Shown here: positions 1,801-9,485 of the stretch, in pieces
Layout: every line of letters begins with the position of its first letter
Numbering within the stretch: the stretch's first letter is position 1
From: Candidatus Dadabacteria bacterium
GTDB lineage: Bacteria > Desulfobacterota_D > UBA1144 > Nemesobacterales > JADFKM01
Assembly: GCA_022564935.1 (NCBI GenBank)
Contig: JADFKM010000051.1
Span: 1 to 14,979 of the forward strand
Reading direction: 5' to 3'
DNA length: 14,979 nt
Made by a program: the position numbers and the translations under genes
Notes under the pieces: model-generated
The model's input: the letters and a program-made list of their open reading frames with translations, nothing else
What the model was told of the DNA's origin: nothing
Databases searched by the model: none

Positions 1801-3810
1801 TTACTTCTTAGGCTCCACGAACAGATACCCCGCCATCTCTAGATGGAGCGCCGAGCAGAACTCGGTGCAGTAGAAGGGGTATACCCCAGGCTTGTCTGCG
1901 GTGAACCTGACGGTGCTGCTCTCGCCGGGCTCGAGGCTCAGATTAATGTTGTATCCGCTGATGGCGAACCCGTGCGTGGCGTCCCTTGCGCGCTCTACAT
2001 TCGTTATATAAATAACGACGTTATCTCCCTCCATCACTTTTATATGCTCGGGGTTGAAACGGCTTCTTAGAGCCGTCATCCAAACCTCTACTTTGTTGCC
2101 ATTTCTCACTATCCTCTCTTTGCCGAGCATCGCGGCATTGGGGTCTTTGCTCATGGTGGCGGGGTTAAACCCTACCTCGGGATAGACCTTCCAGGGGCTG
2201 AGCTTGTCGGCCTTTATCATCTGCACGTAATGGGGCTCGCCGATACCGATCGGCATATCGTAGAGGAGCTTCATTTTATTCCCAGTAATGTCAAGGAGCT
2301 GGAAGTTCTGCGGGTAAAGGGGCCCGACTTCATTGAACCGGTCTATCGACCACTTGTTCAGAGACACGCAGTACTTGCCGTCCGGAGTAACGGTGTCGCC
2401 CTCGGCGCAGACAATGTGGCCGACGTTGTAATGTATCGGGATTTTATCGATCAACTGCCATGCCTTCTCACCCTCATGGTACGGGGGCCCGAGGCTCCAT
2501 TTGGCGACCGTACTCTCGATGAAGACGCTCGTATAGGCATAGCCCTTATTGTCAAACTGTGTGTGCAGGGGCCCGAGACCTATATTTAGCTGGGCTTCCA
2601 CCACGTCGTTGTATTTAAGAATAGGAACCCCATACGGGTCCTTTCCCTCATAGTTCTTGTTCTTGATAGCCTTCATTATCCTATCGAAGGTAAATATGGT
2701 GACGTGGGTGTCCAGTTTTCCCGAGATCACGATGTAGTTGCCGTCGGGGGCAACATCTACTCCATGGGGGCTCTTGGCTTCAGGGACAAAGTAGAGGATC
2801 TCTTCGGCAACGGCCACATCGAGGGGGATCACATCTACCCCGGAGACCTTCTTTGCCTTGCCCTGCTTCACAATCTGGATGGCCTTACGCATGTTTATCA
2901 CGTGAAGGTAGTCCATATCCCTCTGAGAAGCGCCGGCCTCGAACGGCGGTTTGCCCTGGCCTATGCCTCCCGTGGCCATCTCTGTGTTGAACGAGTTGCA
3001 GAAGATCCACCCTTCGCTCACCTTTTTCCCGGGGTCGCACAGGTCTTGCCAGTATGGAGGCACCTCAATCTGGAAGGAGCCCTCAGCTACAATTTTTCCC
3101 TTCTGCCTGTCGAATTTGTGGAACACGATCAACCCCCGGTACTTCTCTTTGTACTGTTCTATAGGGGCATATTCATGAAATGGCAGCGGTGTGGCGTACT
3201 GCGATCCCGAGATTATGTATTCGGTATTCGGGGTAACGAAAGCGCCGCCGTGATTCGATATCAGGTTAGGGGTCTTGACGATCTGCTTGGTCTCGAAATC
3301 CCGGAGGTCGATAACGGCAATTCTTGCGTTCGCCTTGTCGTTGATAAAAAGGAACTGTCCGTCGTATTCCCCGTTAGTCTCGCTTAAGGCCGGATGGTGG
3401 GTGTCCCCCCAGTTGAGGGTGCGCTGTTTGCCGACCGTCATATTGCCGGAGCTCAACAATATAGCCGATTCTTCAGAGCCCTGTCCGAACCCCTGCCACG
3501 GCTCAGGCGTGAAAACGGCTATTACTTTGAGAAGCCTCATAGAGGGAACGCCAATGACAAGAACCTGACCCGAATGACCGCCTGAGGCGAACATTAGGTA
3601 TTCATCACGCTTACCCGTAGGAACATAGGTCTTCAGGGCAGCTTCGATGTTGGCCGGGGTAAGACCGCGCGCCTTCGCAATCTGCTCTGCGTTTCCCGAA
3701 AGACCCGGCTGCCTGCTCTTGCTCTCCAATACACCGGAGAACAGAAGCAGCAGACCGATTAAAAAAGCGAGGCCCAGACCGCCCAGGCCAAACTTTGTCC
3801 ACTTAATCAT
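1801..3810 (-). CDS. nosZ: Nitrous oxide reductase, clade II (Sec-exported)
   Basis: NosZ reduces N2O to N2 in the periplasm using CuZ (catalytic) and CuA (electron entry) centres. The protein has 669 residues from ATG 3810, where AAGGAGG sits 8 bases upstream; GTG 3816 is too close to that site. The N-terminus (MIKWTKFGLGGLGLAFLIGL) lacks a twin-arginine motif, which together with the sequence style marks clade II. All seven expected CuZ histidine contexts are visible: DTHHP (about 138-139), NHGG (about 187), SPHG, GPLHTQF, YNVGHIV and GEPHY. The C-terminal cupredoxin domain has the CuA set: THGFA (His about 613), then C-x3-C-x3-H-x2-M (about 648, 652, 656, 659). No C-terminal heme domain is present. 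The cytochrome c gene ends inside its start (shared ATGATTAA), implying translational coupling and suggesting that cytochrome is the electron donor. Confidence 0.97.
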   Translation of the reverse strand: MIKWTKFGLGGLGLAFLIGLLLLFSGVLESKSRQPGLSGNAEQIAKARGLTPANIEAALKTYVPTGKRDEYLMFASGGHSGQVLVIGVPSMRLLKVIAVFTPEPWQGFGQGSEESAILLSSGNMTVGKQRTLNWGDTHHPALSETNGEYDGQFLFINDKANARIAVIDLRDFETKQIVKTPNLISNHGGAFVTPNTEYIISGSQYATPLPFHEYAPIEQYKEKYRGLIVFHKFDRQKGKIVAEGSFQIEVPPYWQDLCDPGKKVSEGWIFCNSFNTEMATGGIGQGKPPFEAGASQRDMDYLHVINMRKAIQIVKQGKAKKVSGVDVIPLDVAVAEEILYFVPEAKSPHGVDVAPDGNYIVISGKLDTHVTIFTFDRIMKAIKNKNYEGKDPYGVPILKYNDVVEAQLNIGLGPLHTQFDNKGYAYTSVFIESTVAKWSLGPPYHEGEKAWQLIDKIPIHYNVGHIVCAEGDTVTPDGKYCVSLNKWSIDRFNEVGPLYPQNFQLLDITGNKMKLLYDMPIGIGEPHYVQMIKADKLSPWKVYPEVGFNPATMSKDPNAAMLGKERIVRNGNKVEVWMTALRSRFNPEHIKVMEGDNVVIYITNVERARDATHGFAISGYNINLSLEPGESSTVRFTADKPGVYPFYCTEFCSALHLEMAGYLFVEPKK

Positions 3811-4255
3811 TTTCACTACCTCCTTTATTTGTTTCTTCCAATTTGTCGCTGTTTTGGGAATCTTGGGAATCGAGGAGCTTCAAGTACTTTAGAAGCGCCT
3901 CGACTTCATCATCGCTGAGTCCCTGGTTGGGCATAGGAACGTAGTATTCCATGAGGAGCTCCTTGGCTATCGGGTCGGTGTAGACCATCTCATCGGGCGC
4001 CTTAATCCAGCGCCTGAGCCACTGCTCCTCCCTCCTCTCGGTTACGCCTTTTAAGTCCGGGCCGGAGAGCTTCCCACCCCCTATTGTATGACAGCCGATA
4101 CAACCCTTCTCAACAAAGAGTTTTTTGCCTACCTCGGCTACACCCTCACTCTCTTTGGGTTCGCTCTCATCGCTGTAAAGTGGAATGTAAGACGTGAAGA
4201 TCAAGACAAAAAAAATGGCAATAATTGATATTGCCCCTCTGTACCCGCTATACAT
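3803..4255 (-). CDS. Membrane-anchored monoheme cytochrome c (NosC-type position)
   Basis: This 150-residue class I-like cytochrome c probably feeds electrons to NosZ. ATG 4255 has AAGGAG 7 bases upstream. Residues 8-26 form a single hydrophobic helix (ISIIAIFFVLIF) that would anchor it in the inner membrane with the heme domain in the periplasm. The heme site is CIGCH (52-56), followed by GGKLSGPDLKGV; the likely distal ligand is Met108 in YYVPMPN, and a final helix (SDDEVEALLKYLKLL) closes the fold. An acidic, Ser/Asn-rich tail of about 22 residues follows. It is first in the operon and overlaps nosZ by 8 bases. Clade II nos clusters usually carry one or two such cytochromes (nosC1/nosC2); which one this corresponds to cannot be decided. 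The electron-donor role is inference from linkage. Confidence 0.92.
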   Translation of the reverse strand: MYSGYRGAISIIAIFFVLIFTSYIPLYSDESEPKESEGVAEVGKKLFVEKGCIGCHTIGGGKLSGPDLKGVTERREEQWLRRWIKAPDEMVYTDPIAKELLMEYYVPMPNQGLSDDEVEALLKYLKLLDSQDSQNSDKLEETNKGGSEND

Positions 4256-4487
4256 TACAAGACTCCTTGGATACTTGAGTATTTATTAGTATTCACTTAT
4301 ATATTAATCGAAAAGGGGGCACAATCAAGGGCAAAATGTACGCAAATGCGAAAAAACTTCGCTCCTCGATGCCCCCTCAATTCTAACCGTCTCTAATTAC
4401 ACGAATATTTCATTCACTATTTAAGAAATATTGTCAATGTCCGTGACTTCCGCACGCTATTCTGTAATATATGCTTACATGAATACT
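4256..4487. promoter_or_regulatory. Divergent control region between the nos operon and the SCO gene
   Basis: About 230 AT-rich bases separate the divergent genes and must carry both promoters. Seen here: a short palindrome ATACT-TG-AGTAT (4271-4282) just upstream of the nos operon ribosome site; AGTATT repeated at 4278-4283 and 4289-4294; and a long-range inverted pair GGGGGCA (4315-4321) / TGCCCCC (4370-4376). I found no convincing TTGAT-N4-ATCAA Fnr-type box, so which element the Crp/Fnr neighbour would use is unknown. Promoter hexamers are not assigned. Confidence 0.5.
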
Positions 4488-5105
4488 ATGAAAAAGCGCT
4501 CGCTTCTCCTCATTTTGCCCCTTGCAGCGCTTTTGGTTGCCGGAAGCGCTTTCTATATGTACCGCCATTTTCGACTTAAAGTCGAAAATGGCGCATTTCA
4601 CGGGGTTCTCTACGATGAAACGGCGCCGGGTATCTCGCTTACCGACCACAATGGCGAGAGACTGTCACTCTCGGACCTCAGGGGCAAGGTAGTGCTCCTT
4701 TTCTTTGGATACACACACTGCCCAGATATTTGCCCTACGACCCTTCTTAAGCTTAAGAGGGTGGTGACTCTGCTCCGGGAGTCCGAGGACAGGGTACGGG
4801 TTGTGTTCATCACGGTCGATCCGGAGCGGGATAACCCCAATAGGCTCAAGGCATATATACCTTACTTTGGGAAGGAGTTTGTGGGACTTACGGGAAGCAT
4901 GGGTGATATCGAAAAAGTGGCCGGTGCATACAACGTTATTTACAAAAAGGAATATGACGAGGACTCGAAGCTCGAATACCTCATGGGACACACCTCATCC
5001 GTTTACCTTATCGACCCGGAGGGGAAATTGCTTCTCCGGTACTCTCAGGGCAAGCTCGACCCTGCATGGGTTGCCGAAGATATAAAAAAGATTTTGGATC
5101 GATAA
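4488..5105 (+). CDS. SCO1/SenC-family copper chaperone / thiol-disulfide protein
   Basis: SCO proteins deliver copper or reduce cysteines of CuA centres; beside nosZ the likely client is the NosZ CuA site (inference). From ATG 4488 the protein has 205 residues: a membrane anchor (MKKRSLLLILPLAALLVAGS), then a thioredoxin-fold domain with the SCO motif THCPDICP (Cys about 78 and 82) and the third copper ligand His in GHTSSVYLID (about 168). The segment ITVDPERDNPNRLKAY is also typical. The start is uncertain: no Shine-Dalgarno sequence is visible before ATG 4488, ATG 4479, ATG 4437 or TTG 4431; 4488 gives the cleanest anchor. It is divergent from the nos operon. A 31-base near-perfect palindrome lies inside the gene just after the anchor. 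A small inverted repeat ATCGATA-N4-TATCGAT straddles the stop. Confidence 0.93.
   Translation: MKKRSLLLILPLAALLVAGSAFYMYRHFRLKVENGAFHGVLYDETAPGISLTDHNGERLSLSDLRGKVVLLFFGYTHCPDICPTTLLKLKRVVTLLRESEDRVRVVFITVDPERDNPNRLKAYIPYFGKEFVGLTGSMGDIEKVAGAYNVIYKKEYDEDSKLEYLMGHTSSVYLIDPEGKLLLRYSQGKLDPAWVAEDIKKILDR
4563..4593. repeat. 31-base perfect inverted repeat within the SCO coding sequence
   Basis: CGCCATTTTCGACTT (4563-4577) and AAGTCGAAAATGGCG (4579-4593) are exact reverse complements around a single A. The repeat encodes about RHFRLKVENG, just after the membrane anchor. As RNA it would form a strong hairpin about 75 bases into the gene; as DNA it is a candidate operator or extrudable palindrome. 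The repeat is directly seen; no function is established. Confidence 0.9.
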
Positions 5106-5592: not shown

Positions 5593-6324
5593 ATGGATTA
5601 TTCGAGCATAAAGCAAAATGTTCAAAGCTGTTTTGTTTGTAGTACAAGAGCAGGCAGTATCTTTTCTGACCTCGATCATTCACGCATAGAGGTACTCGAC
5701 CGTATGACGCTAAAGAGCATCTATCCAGGCGGTACTGTCGTGTTTGTAGAAGACGATCAGCCACGAGGAGTCTATTGCATTTGCTCCGGGCGGGTGAAGC
5801 TTTCGGGCTATTCGTCCGATGGGCGAGCGGTTATCGTCGATATCGCAACTGCCGGAAATGTACTCGGTGTAAAGGAGTTGCTGTCGGGGAATCCTTACAA
5901 TTTGACGGCAGAGACACTTGTTCCAACCCAGCTGTGTTTCATCAGGAAAGATGACTTCCTCGGTTTCTTGAATCAAAACGGGGATGTTTGTTTGAGACTT
6001 GTAGAGGAGTTGTGCACTAAGCTTTGTGAAGCGCATCGAAAAGTAAGCGATGCGGCACTCAAACGATCATATGAACGGCTGGTGGAATTGTTGTTAAGAC
6101 TTTACAAAAGTCATGGTGAGCCGACATCAGACGGTGTCAGGCTGAATATAAACTTGAGTCAGGAAGAACTTGCCGAGGAGATAGGCGTGTCAAGGCGAAC
6201 ACTCACTCGGGCGCTCACGAACCTCAAGCGCCTGGGAATAATCGAGTGCCGACGGCGCTCTATTATAGTCCGCGATAGAGTCGCGCTTGAGAATAGCCTG
6301 ACCTCGAAAAATCTATTACAATAA
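5593..6324 (+). CDS. Crp/Fnr-family transcriptional regulator
   Basis: This 243-residue regulator has a cyclic-nucleotide-binding-type beta-roll (about 25-125, including YPGGTVVFVEDDQPRGVYCICSGRVKL), a long dimerisation helix (about 130-170) and a C-terminal winged helix-turn-helix (LSQEELAEEIGVSRRTLTRAL, about 188-208, then the wing LGIIECRRRSIIVRD). The N-terminus has CFVC (Cys13, Cys16) ahead of the effector domain, a place where many Fnr-like proteins carry cysteines; additional cysteines are at 62, 64, 115, 133, 141 and 145. It lacks the full E. coli Fnr CxxCxxxxxC spacing, so an iron-sulfur cluster is possible but not shown. ATG 5593 has no clear ribosome site. Placed after the divergent nos/SCO pair and before the heme-propeller gene, it probably controls one or both in response to low oxygen or N-oxides (inference). 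Confidence 0.93.
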   Translation: MDYSSIKQNVQSCFVCSTRAGSIFSDLDHSRIEVLDRMTLKSIYPGGTVVFVEDDQPRGVYCICSGRVKLSGYSSDGRAVIVDIATAGNVLGVKELLSGNPYNLTAETLVPTQLCFIRKDDFLGFLNQNGDVCLRLVEELCTKLCEAHRKVSDAALKRSYERLVELLLRLYKSHGEPTSDGVRLNINLSQEELAEEIGVSRRTLTRALTNLKRLGIIECRRRSIIVRDRVALENSLTSKNLLQ

Positions 6325-6473: not shown

Positions 6474-8531
6474 ATGAAAAAAGTGTTAAGTTCGCTTATA
6501 GCGCTGGTCGCGTTGTTTGCTTTTTCCTTCATCATCAACTGGAATTTGCATGATGCTAAGGGGAAGCCTCCCGGGCCTGGGTTGCCAATTGACGCCGATG
6601 ATATCGGCGGGCAGGTTGTCTCTAGCGATGGACCGGAGGCCGGAGTATGGGTAATTGCAGAAACCGACGCCCTCCCCACTAAGTTCCGTAAGATAGTTGT
6701 CACCGATGATGACGGGAACTTCGTCGTACCAGACCTACCCGCTCTACCTAAACCCAATGCAAAATACGATGTATGGGTGCGGGGATACGGGCTTGCGGAC
6801 TCAAGACCCATCCAGGCTTCACCGGGTGATACAATTGCACTCGTGGCCAATATTGCGGCTACCCCGCAGGAGGCGGCGGAAGTCTATCCCGCAAATTACT
6901 GGTATTCACTTCTTGAGCCCCCCGCTGAAAGTATGTTTCCCGGAACAGGGCCCATCGTCGATGGTGGAAATGGGATCCCCACAAGTTATCCTGATCAAGA
7001 ATCTTGGGTAAATCAAATCAAGCTGATGTGTGAGCTCTGCCACCAGATGGGTAACGAGGCTACAAGGTCGCTCCCGACTGTTGGAGCGTTCGACGCTGGT
7101 CTTAAGAAGGCGGGATTTATGGATATGATCGCTACCGGTCTTGGTAGAGAGGTGGCATTGGAGGTCTTCGGCGATTGGTTAGAAAGAATAGCGGCGGGTG
7201 AGGTTCCCCCAGAGCCGCCCAGACCCCAGGGTATAGAAAGAAACTTCGTTATAACCCAGTGGGAGTGGGGAGACCGATTCGCGTACGTCCATGATGAGAT
7301 AGCAACCGATAAGCGGGATCCCTATCTGTATCCATATGGAAAGGTGTACGGCATGGACATTGGGATGGACCGCCTTTTGGCAGTTGACCCCGTTACCAAC
7401 GAGGTCTTTGAATGGGATGTCCCTACCCGGGGCGGTTTTAACACTCCGTGGTGTAAGCAGCCCGGTTTCTGTACCTGGAAAGTGTACCATAACCCCGCTA
7501 ATCCGCATAACCCTATGATGGATGATACGGGCAAGGTATGGATGACGACCCAGATAAGAGCAACAACGCTCTCAGATTACTGCCTTGATATAGATCCTGC
7601 GATTCGCCCTAGCCGTCGTGGATTGGGATTTTTTGACACCGTTACAGAAGAGTTCGCGCTGATTGATACCTGTTATGGGACACACCATCTTCAGTTTGAT
7701 TCTGATGGTGTACTCTGGACGAGCGGAGATAGCCGAGTATTTGGATGGCTTGACCCCAGTCTGCTCGACCTAGGGGATTGTGGAATAGAGAGTTGCCCTT
7801 CGGAGCAGGTGGCGCAAGGCTGGTTCCGAGTGGTAGTGGATTCGGATGGCGACGGCGTAGCCGACACACCCATGCCTGGATCTAATTATGGAATTATCCC
7901 CAATCCAAAAGATGGAACTATCTGGACGACCGCTATTGGTTACCCATCAGCAATTAAGCGCCTTGATCCTGAGACCGGCATGTTCGAGATTTATACACCT
8001 CCAGCACCAGGACATGGGGCAAGAGGAATAGATGTGGATACAAAAGGAAACATATGGACCTGTTTGGGCGGCAGTGGACATGTAGCGAAATTTGACCGCA
8101 AAAAATGTAAGCAAACGTGGGGCACGGGAGACCAGTGTCCTGAAGGGTGGACCATGTGGGAAACCCCTGGACCTCAAATGATTGGTGTGTCGGATGAAAC
8201 TAATGAGGGTAGTGCCGATTTCCACTACTACAATTGGGTAGACCAGTTTGATACATTAGGACTGGGAAAAAATACGGTTATTTGTAACGGTACAGGTTCG
8301 GATTCACTTCTTGCTTTTAATCCGAAGACCGAAAAGTTTACGATAATCCGTATGCCATACCCGCTCGGGTTCTTCCAACGTGGACTGGATGGCAGGATTG
8401 ACGACCCGAATGCAGGCTGGAAAGGTAAAGGGCTATGGGTAGATTACGGTGGAGACCCTGCCAAGCATGTTGAAACCAAGATGGGGCAGATTTGCAAAGT
8501 CCAGCTTCGTCCTGACCCGCTCGCTCACTAA
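6474..8531 (+). CDS. Secreted monoheme protein: CarboxypepD_reg-like domain, CxxCH, Vgb-like beta-propeller
   Basis: This 685-residue exported protein starts at ATG 6474 with AAGGAGG 9 bases upstream. A hydrophobic signal (VLSSLIALVALFAFSFII) is followed by an Ig-like carboxypeptidase-regulatory domain (about 44-130: GGQVVSSDGPEAGVWVIAET, GNFVVPDLP, YDVWVRGYGL). A heme motif CELCH is at 186-190 inside a helical region. From about 280 to the end it has propeller blades like streptogramin/virginiamycin B lyase proteins (LLAVDPVTNEVFEWDVP, HLQFDSDGVLWTSG, GTIWTTAIGYPSAIKRLDPETGMFEIYTPP, GIDVDTKGNIWTC, SLLAFNPKTEKFTIIRMP). A DSDGDGVAD loop (about 455-465) looks calcium-binding. Ten or so further cysteines in the propeller may form disulfides. 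Substrate is unknown; similar multi-domain proteins are annotated only by domain. A strong terminator follows, so it is probably monocistronic. A periplasmic dehydrogenase or sensor role is inference. Confidence 0.85.
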   Translation: MKKVLSSLIALVALFAFSFIINWNLHDAKGKPPGPGLPIDADDIGGQVVSSDGPEAGVWVIAETDALPTKFRKIVVTDDDGNFVVPDLPALPKPNAKYDVWVRGYGLADSRPIQASPGDTIALVANIAATPQEAAEVYPANYWYSLLEPPAESMFPGTGPIVDGGNGIPTSYPDQESWVNQIKLMCELCHQMGNEATRSLPTVGAFDAGLKKAGFMDMIATGLGREVALEVFGDWLERIAAGEVPPEPPRPQGIERNFVITQWEWGDRFAYVHDEIATDKRDPYLYPYGKVYGMDIGMDRLLAVDPVTNEVFEWDVPTRGGFNTPWCKQPGFCTWKVYHNPANPHNPMMDDTGKVWMTTQIRATTLSDYCLDIDPAIRPSRRGLGFFDTVTEEFALIDTCYGTHHLQFDSDGVLWTSGDSRVFGWLDPSLLDLGDCGIESCPSEQVAQGWFRVVVDSDGDGVADTPMPGSNYGIIPNPKDGTIWTTAIGYPSAIKRLDPETGMFEIYTPPAPGHGARGIDVDTKGNIWTCLGGSGHVAKFDRKKCKQTWGTGDQCPEGWTMWETPGPQMIGVSDETNEGSADFHYYNWVDQFDTLGLGKNTVICNGTGSDSLLAFNPKTEKFTIIRMPYPLGFFQRGLDGRIDDPNAGWKGKGLWVDYGGDPAKHVETKMGQICKVQLRPDPLAH

Positions 8532-8554: not shown

Positions 8555-8588
8555 GGGGGGACTCAAAAAAAGGAGTCCCCCCTTTTTT
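8555..8588 (+). terminator. Strong Rho-independent terminator
   Basis: GGGGGGACTC (8555-8564) pairs perfectly with GAGTCCCCCC (8573-8582) around an eight-base A-rich loop, followed directly by TTTTTT (8583-8588). It lies 24 bases after the heme-propeller stop codon and 36 bases before the next start, so it separates the two transcripts. Confidence 0.95.
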
Positions 8589-8624
8589 AAAAAACCAATA
8601 AATAATATCTGCAGTGGAGGATAA

Positions 8625-9485
8625 ATGAAGAGACTGTATCTTTTTGCAGCTTACATGGTAGTACTACTCTTTAGCCACCCAGCTTATGCCGGTGATGCAG
8701 ACCTTCCAAACCCCTATCTCCCATCCTATCCATTTAAGAGTGCTGTTATACATTACTCCCTTAAAAACGAGTATGGTCACGGGAAATTTTTAACAGGTAC
8801 ACAGGTGGTCTATATAAAAGGCGATAGGCTTGCGAAAGTAACAAAAATGACTGTTCCTGACCCCAAGGGTAAGACCGAGAATATTGAAGCCTTGAATATT
8901 TTTAACCCCGATTATGTATATATGATTGATTTAATTAAAAAGACGGGTGCGAAGATAGATAACCAAAAAAAATACGGGAAAGCTGCTTACGATAAGTGAT
9001 CGGTAGAAGAGAAAAAGGGTTTTCACGAGAGAATAAGCAGGAGGGAAATTATATCTTTAGACCTGCTCGGTCTAGGCAGAAAAATAGGTTTGGAAACCGT
9101 CTTAGGGCGCGAATGTGAAATTTACCTGTCGGGAGAGGAATTAAATCCAGAGAAATTGCCGGAAGGTGCATTTGAAAGAGGTAAAGACTCCTATTATACG
9201 AAGAGTTGGATTTGGAAAGAAGCTGCTATTCCACTTAAAGTCATAATAACAGGTTTAGGTTGGTCCAATGAACTAATTGCAACAAAAATAGTGGAAAACG
9301 TAAAAATTCCTAACAGTCGGTTTACGGTGCCTTCTGATATAAAGGTCAATTACGATGAAGAAAAATCAGAATGGGCAAAGCGGGAGGCTCTGGCAAGTTT
9401 TGAGCTTTATAAGACTGGTAAATCAAAGGTGGTTAAGATGAAACTAAAGAGACGAGAGATAAAGCCTAAAGGAGATTCCAAGTAG
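8625..9485 (+). pseudogene. Secreted lipoprotein-sorting-like protein interrupted by one in-frame TGA (codon 125)
   Basis: One uninterrupted frame of 286 codons runs from ATG 8625 (GGAGG just upstream) to TAG 9483-9485, except for TGA at 8997-8999. The N-terminal part has a signal peptide (MKRLYLFAAYMVVLLFSHPA, cleavage after AYA) and beta-rich segments (AVIHYSLKNEYGHGKFLTGT, QVVYIKGDRLAKVTKMTVP, DYVYMIDLIKKTGAKIDNQ), in the style of outer-membrane lipoprotein carrier-like (LolA-like/DUF4412-type) proteins. The part after the TGA continues the same fold (VEEKKGFHERI, LGRECEIYLSGEE, WIWKEAAIPLKVIITGLG, VENVKIPNSRFTVPSDI). The flanks read AYDK-TGA-SVEEKK, where a leucine would fit, so TTA-to-TGA is the simplest event. 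It could be a recent pseudogene, a sequencing error, or readthrough/recoding. Both halves look conserved. The region is AT-richer than its neighbours. Confidence 0.8.

Follow-up and report, generated by a model that had tools for sequence, protein, structure and literature searches.

The 14,979-nucleotide stretch of Candidatus Dadabacteria DNA analysed here (hereafter the window) contains a forward-strand reading frame at positions 8625-9485, the sole interruption of which is an in-frame TGA (8997-8999). This raises the question of whether the codon disrupts a gene or is translated as sense. The original prediction had described a single frame broken by a lone TGA, and this was borne out by translation and by the end-to-end homology of both halves. 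The read-through frame comprises 124 amino acids, the TGA, a further 161 amino acids and a terminal TAG (Table 1). An open run of 161 codons would arise by chance with a probability of ~2.4e-6 at the base composition of the 3′ part, while the remaining five frames of the post-TGA stretch contain 6 to 17 stops apiece. The first in-frame start codon beyond the TGA is a TTG at position 9090, approximately 30 codons downstream, and the second half is therefore not simply a separate gene.

Table 1. Sequence features of the interrupted LolA-fold gene and its upstream region, in window coordinates.
Feature	Position	Strand	Basis
Strong hairpin resembling an intrinsic terminator, between the upstream gene and the LolA-fold gene	8555..8582	+	sequence
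Shine-Dalgarno-like stretch with GGAGG, preceding the ATG at 8625	8613..8620	+	direct sequence reading
Codons 1-124 (5′ part), encoding the signal peptide and, within the LolA-like fold, strands one to six together with the first central helix	8625..8996	+	translation, alignment, structure model
In-frame TGA (codon 125); leucine (CTG/TTG) in 5/5 homologues	8997..8999	+	translation, alignment
Codons 126-286 (3′ part), continuing in frame and free of further disruption; comparison with the nearest homologue gives a dN/dS of ~0.19	9000..9482	+	translation, dN/dS
TAG, natural stop codon	9483..9485	+	translation

Comparison of the read-through protein against the Pfam and NCBIfam families yielded no match. 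Its predicted structural model (pLDDT: 73; pTM: 0.71) adopts a LolA-like half-barrel fold, and a Foldseek search with this model retrieved LolA3, LolA and LprG (e-values: 1e-8 to 1e-6). In a structure comparison, several LolA structures furthermore reached Z scores of ~10, and a functionally uncharacterized Thermus protein scored 11.6. On the basis of the predicted model, the gene product is a secreted or periplasmic protein of the LolA/LolB/RseB fold. It shares secretion and a predicted antiparallel half-barrel with helices with the LolA/LolB/RseB/LprG-LppX superfamily, but sequence identities are mostly 6-16% and the window protein is assigned to no Pfam or NCBIfam family. The earlier description of a secreted, LolA-like or DUF4412-type protein is thus right at the level of the fold, while the DUF4412 signal lies just below threshold in one homologue, a copy from genome G042 (20.5 versus a cut-off of 21.6 bits). 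The protein and its homologues represent a small family of secreted LolA-fold proteins in Dadabacteria relatives, unnamed in Pfam and NCBIfam. In the predicted model the TGA falls in mid-domain, between two central helices (residues 115-123 and 127-139).

Clear homologues were identified in three other genomes of the same order among 60 related genomes searched. The G013 protein shares 70% amino acid identity with the window protein along its full length, that of G015 shares 50%, and G042 encodes a tandem array of three copies (48%, 43% and 37%), while G059 yielded a marginal match only (e-value: 0.007). Widening the search to 57 genomes of the phylum brought no additional homologues. Searching GTDB contigs with the single read-through protein returned no match, while the family alignment retrieved two of these relatives, one a groundwater MAG labelled 'Deltaproteobacteria' and the other a MAG of Candidatus Dadabacteria. 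The five uninterrupted homologues from the three genomes align end to end with the read-through protein (33-70% identity), and all five carry a leucine codon, either CTG or TTG, opposite the window TGA. None has a stop, or naturally ends or starts, at codon 125. The expectation that a leucine would fit at this site was therefore correct. The accompanying proposal of a TTA-to-TGA change as the simplest origin holds in that a single step from the leucine codon TTA would suffice, but the homologues themselves use CTG or TTG.

Several further features of this family can be observed. The three G042 copies form a tandem paralogue trio (L004:366-3527), and the family has a patchy distribution, being present in 4/43 genomes of the order. 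The window gene is also AT-rich (39% G+C, against 51% in a sample of the genome), and this patchy, AT-rich gene has perhaps been transferred between lineages. A search of plasmid records for the LolA-fold gene returned no match.

The in-frame stop lies inside a region homologous to uninterrupted genes, as is characteristic of a nonsense-interrupted gene. Very likely, a codon for a conserved leucine has recently turned into a stop in this gene, either through a real change or through a base error in the one assembly available. A single nonsense change would have struck the conserved leucine codon of a LolA-fold gene and, if the stop is real, translation would end after 124 residues. According to the structural model, the truncated product would be left with approximately half of the β-sheet and a single central helix out of two, and would be expected to be unstable or inactive. 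The locus resembles young bacterial pseudogenes with one nonsense stop, in which the gene is otherwise intact and conserved, and no difference from these was seen. As it stands the finding is of little significance, and it illustrates that recoding is not indicated merely by a frame that stays open past a stop and has both halves conserved.

The recency of the nonsense change can be inferred from the pattern of constraint. In comparison with G013, the part preceding the stop has a dN/dS of 0.22 (0.17 when the signal peptide is left out) and the part following it a value of 0.19, and the gene contains neither a frameshift nor a second stop. The stop is probably young, given that dN/dS is ~0.2 on either side of it and that free drift of the second half over most of the branch would have produced far more change, although synonymous sites (dS) are too diverged for the stop to be dated. 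With G015 as outgroup, the window branch has a higher dN than the G013 branch before (0.129 versus 0.047) as well as after the stop (0.147 versus 0.020), with overlapping intervals and no clear difference between the halves, while the asymmetry in whole-gene distances at the protein level is smaller (0.164 versus 0.144). This asymmetry does not single out the post-stop part, and the faster window branch may reflect slightly relaxed constraint across the entire gene or a lineage that evolves faster. The earlier observation that the second half shows no decay is broadly right, but it carries no weight as evidence for recoding, since exactly this appearance is expected of a young nonsense allele or a base error.

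Other interrupted genes in this genome, a fragmented draft assembly of 104 contigs that is 88.6% complete, provide a context for the stop. A survey of 101 non-overlapping stretches with homology to genes of G015 (34,562 codons) detected two internal stops, of which only the window TGA is genuine. The other, a TAG at L073:3205, was rejected as it precedes the ArgJ domain and most likely reflects an over-extended start in the relative. A second survey, based on composition and codon usage, misses the window gene, the AT-rich codon usage of which scores low, and most of its candidates represented shadow frames or neighbouring genes. It did, however, recover the single-copy ilvC gene, which is split by one in-frame TAG (L081:1756-1758 on contig C5; also L074:13816). 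Seven aligned homologues have proline or alanine at the TAG position, and ilvC of this genome carries one extra codon downstream of the TAG relative to the same seven. No stop was found in any full-length ilvC match in the other genomes of the order. In the relative G007 (G007:C24:8673-9470), ilvC matches as two pieces that span residues 1-119 and 224-339 but not the part between them, a pattern that points to an internal deletion or an assembly fault. Two lone stops of different kinds, TGA and TAG, in otherwise intact genes are as expected from mutation in a population or from occasional base errors, and give no hint of a mechanism specific to TGA.

The decoding machinery of the genome lends no support to a special reading of the TGA. 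The selA gene is absent, no selB candidate exceeds the cut-off either in this genome or in 41 further genomes of the order, tRNA-Sec likewise yields nothing over the cut-off (the best eight matches are ordinary tRNAs), and none of the 36 tRNAs found carries a UCA anticodon, all anticodons being ordinary, although at 88.6% completeness the lack of any single gene, whether a suppressor tRNA, selA or selB, is not absolute. A suppressor tRNA among the 36 was accordingly rejected. The changes known to increase UGA reading by tRNA-Trp are a 4-bp anticodon stem, A9C and G24A (PMC13092985). Read by eye, tRNA-Trp of this genome is normal, in that its anticodon stem has all 5 bp and positions 9 and 24 are A9 and G24, and a UGA-reading variant was likewise rejected. 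Reassignment of UGA to sense was also rejected, as prfB is intact, TGA terminates 59 of the 154 long genes having a stop in a 376-kb genome sample, no UCA tRNA was found and the 34,562 aligned codons hold no other internal TGA. The original prediction had seen no convincing SECIS hairpin directly after the TGA, and folding agrees, the downstream sequence forming no stable or SECIS-like hairpin and folding no better than shuffled sequences; the fold of the region surrounding the TGA is likewise unremarkable. Its suggestion that read-through or recoding is possible thus finds no support in the searches for selenocysteine genes and suppressor tRNAs. Selenocysteine insertion, for which the identity of the codon as TGA is the sole point in favour, can be virtually discounted given the missing machinery, the lack of a hairpin immediately downstream and the presence of leucine rather than cysteine in the homologues.

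The nonsense change may be real or may have arisen during assembly. A real change in the sampled population, making the gene a young null allele or pseudogene, is reasonably probable, while a pure artefact, in which base 8998 is a single-base consensus error or the product of strain mixture (a chimera) and the cells carry an intact gene, is possible but rather doubtful. The fragmented, incomplete draft assembly is consistent with an artefact, as are the lone TAG in a single-copy core gene such as ilvC and the lack of decay elsewhere in the LolA-fold gene. However, apart from the window TGA and the ilvC TAG no genuine internal stop occurs in ~34,500 aligned codons, and the assembly is therefore not generally error-ridden. 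It is highly unlikely that the locus encodes two separate proteins, the second initiated internally at the TTG at 9090. This in-frame TTG does follow the stop by ~30 codons, but homology runs on through the codons between the TGA and the TTG, the second piece would be devoid of a signal peptide, the cut would pass through the middle of one predicted domain, and the gene is split in no relative.

Low-level read-through of a tolerated stop, with a near-cognate tRNA decoding the TGA to give a little full-length protein, is improbable and finds no positive support in this genome, although the undamaged second half leaves a small chance of functional read-through on sequence grounds. For bacterial genes in which an in-frame stop coincides with a dN/dS below 1, read-through has been proposed in a study that needed the same stop in at least two species (Belinky et al. 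2021; PMC7918605), and such stops are claimed to be common (PMC7918605). Furthermore, the ordinary tRNA-Trp of Escherichia coli is reported to give background UGA read-through (PMC13092985). The window gene resembles the stops of Belinky et al. (2021; PMC7918605) in that dN/dS lies well below 1 on both sides, with purifying selection on both halves relative to G013, but differs in that the TGA is found in one genome only. It occurs in no relative, so that dN/dS does not speak to selection after its origin, and such stops mostly last only at the scale of population polymorphism (PMC7918605). The tRNA-Trp shows no UGA-reading feature, the structure downstream of the TGA is unremarkable, and the homologues have leucine rather than tryptophan at the site. 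Programmed read-through would entail the same stop in diverged relatives, and all five homologues instead have leucine. It is likewise improbable that a genuine, fixed TGA is decoded at a useful rate through some undetected mechanism, yielding small and perhaps regulated amounts of full-length protein.

Additional genes can be observed upstream of the LolA-fold gene in the window. The nearest (6474-8531, + strand) encodes a secreted protein of 685 amino acids with a CELCH (CxxCH) heme-type motif, which matches no family over the cut-off and is weakly similar to the SMP-30 and virginiamycin B lyase propellers. Further upstream, the genes at 1801-3816 (- strand), 3803-4255 (- strand), 4431-5105 (+ strand) and 5593-6324 (+ strand) form a small denitrification gene group. 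This group encodes a Sec-dependent (clade II type) nitrous-oxide reductase, NosZ, scoring well over the family cut-off, with a cytochrome c, a Sco-like protein and a Crp/Fnr-type regulator as its neighbours.
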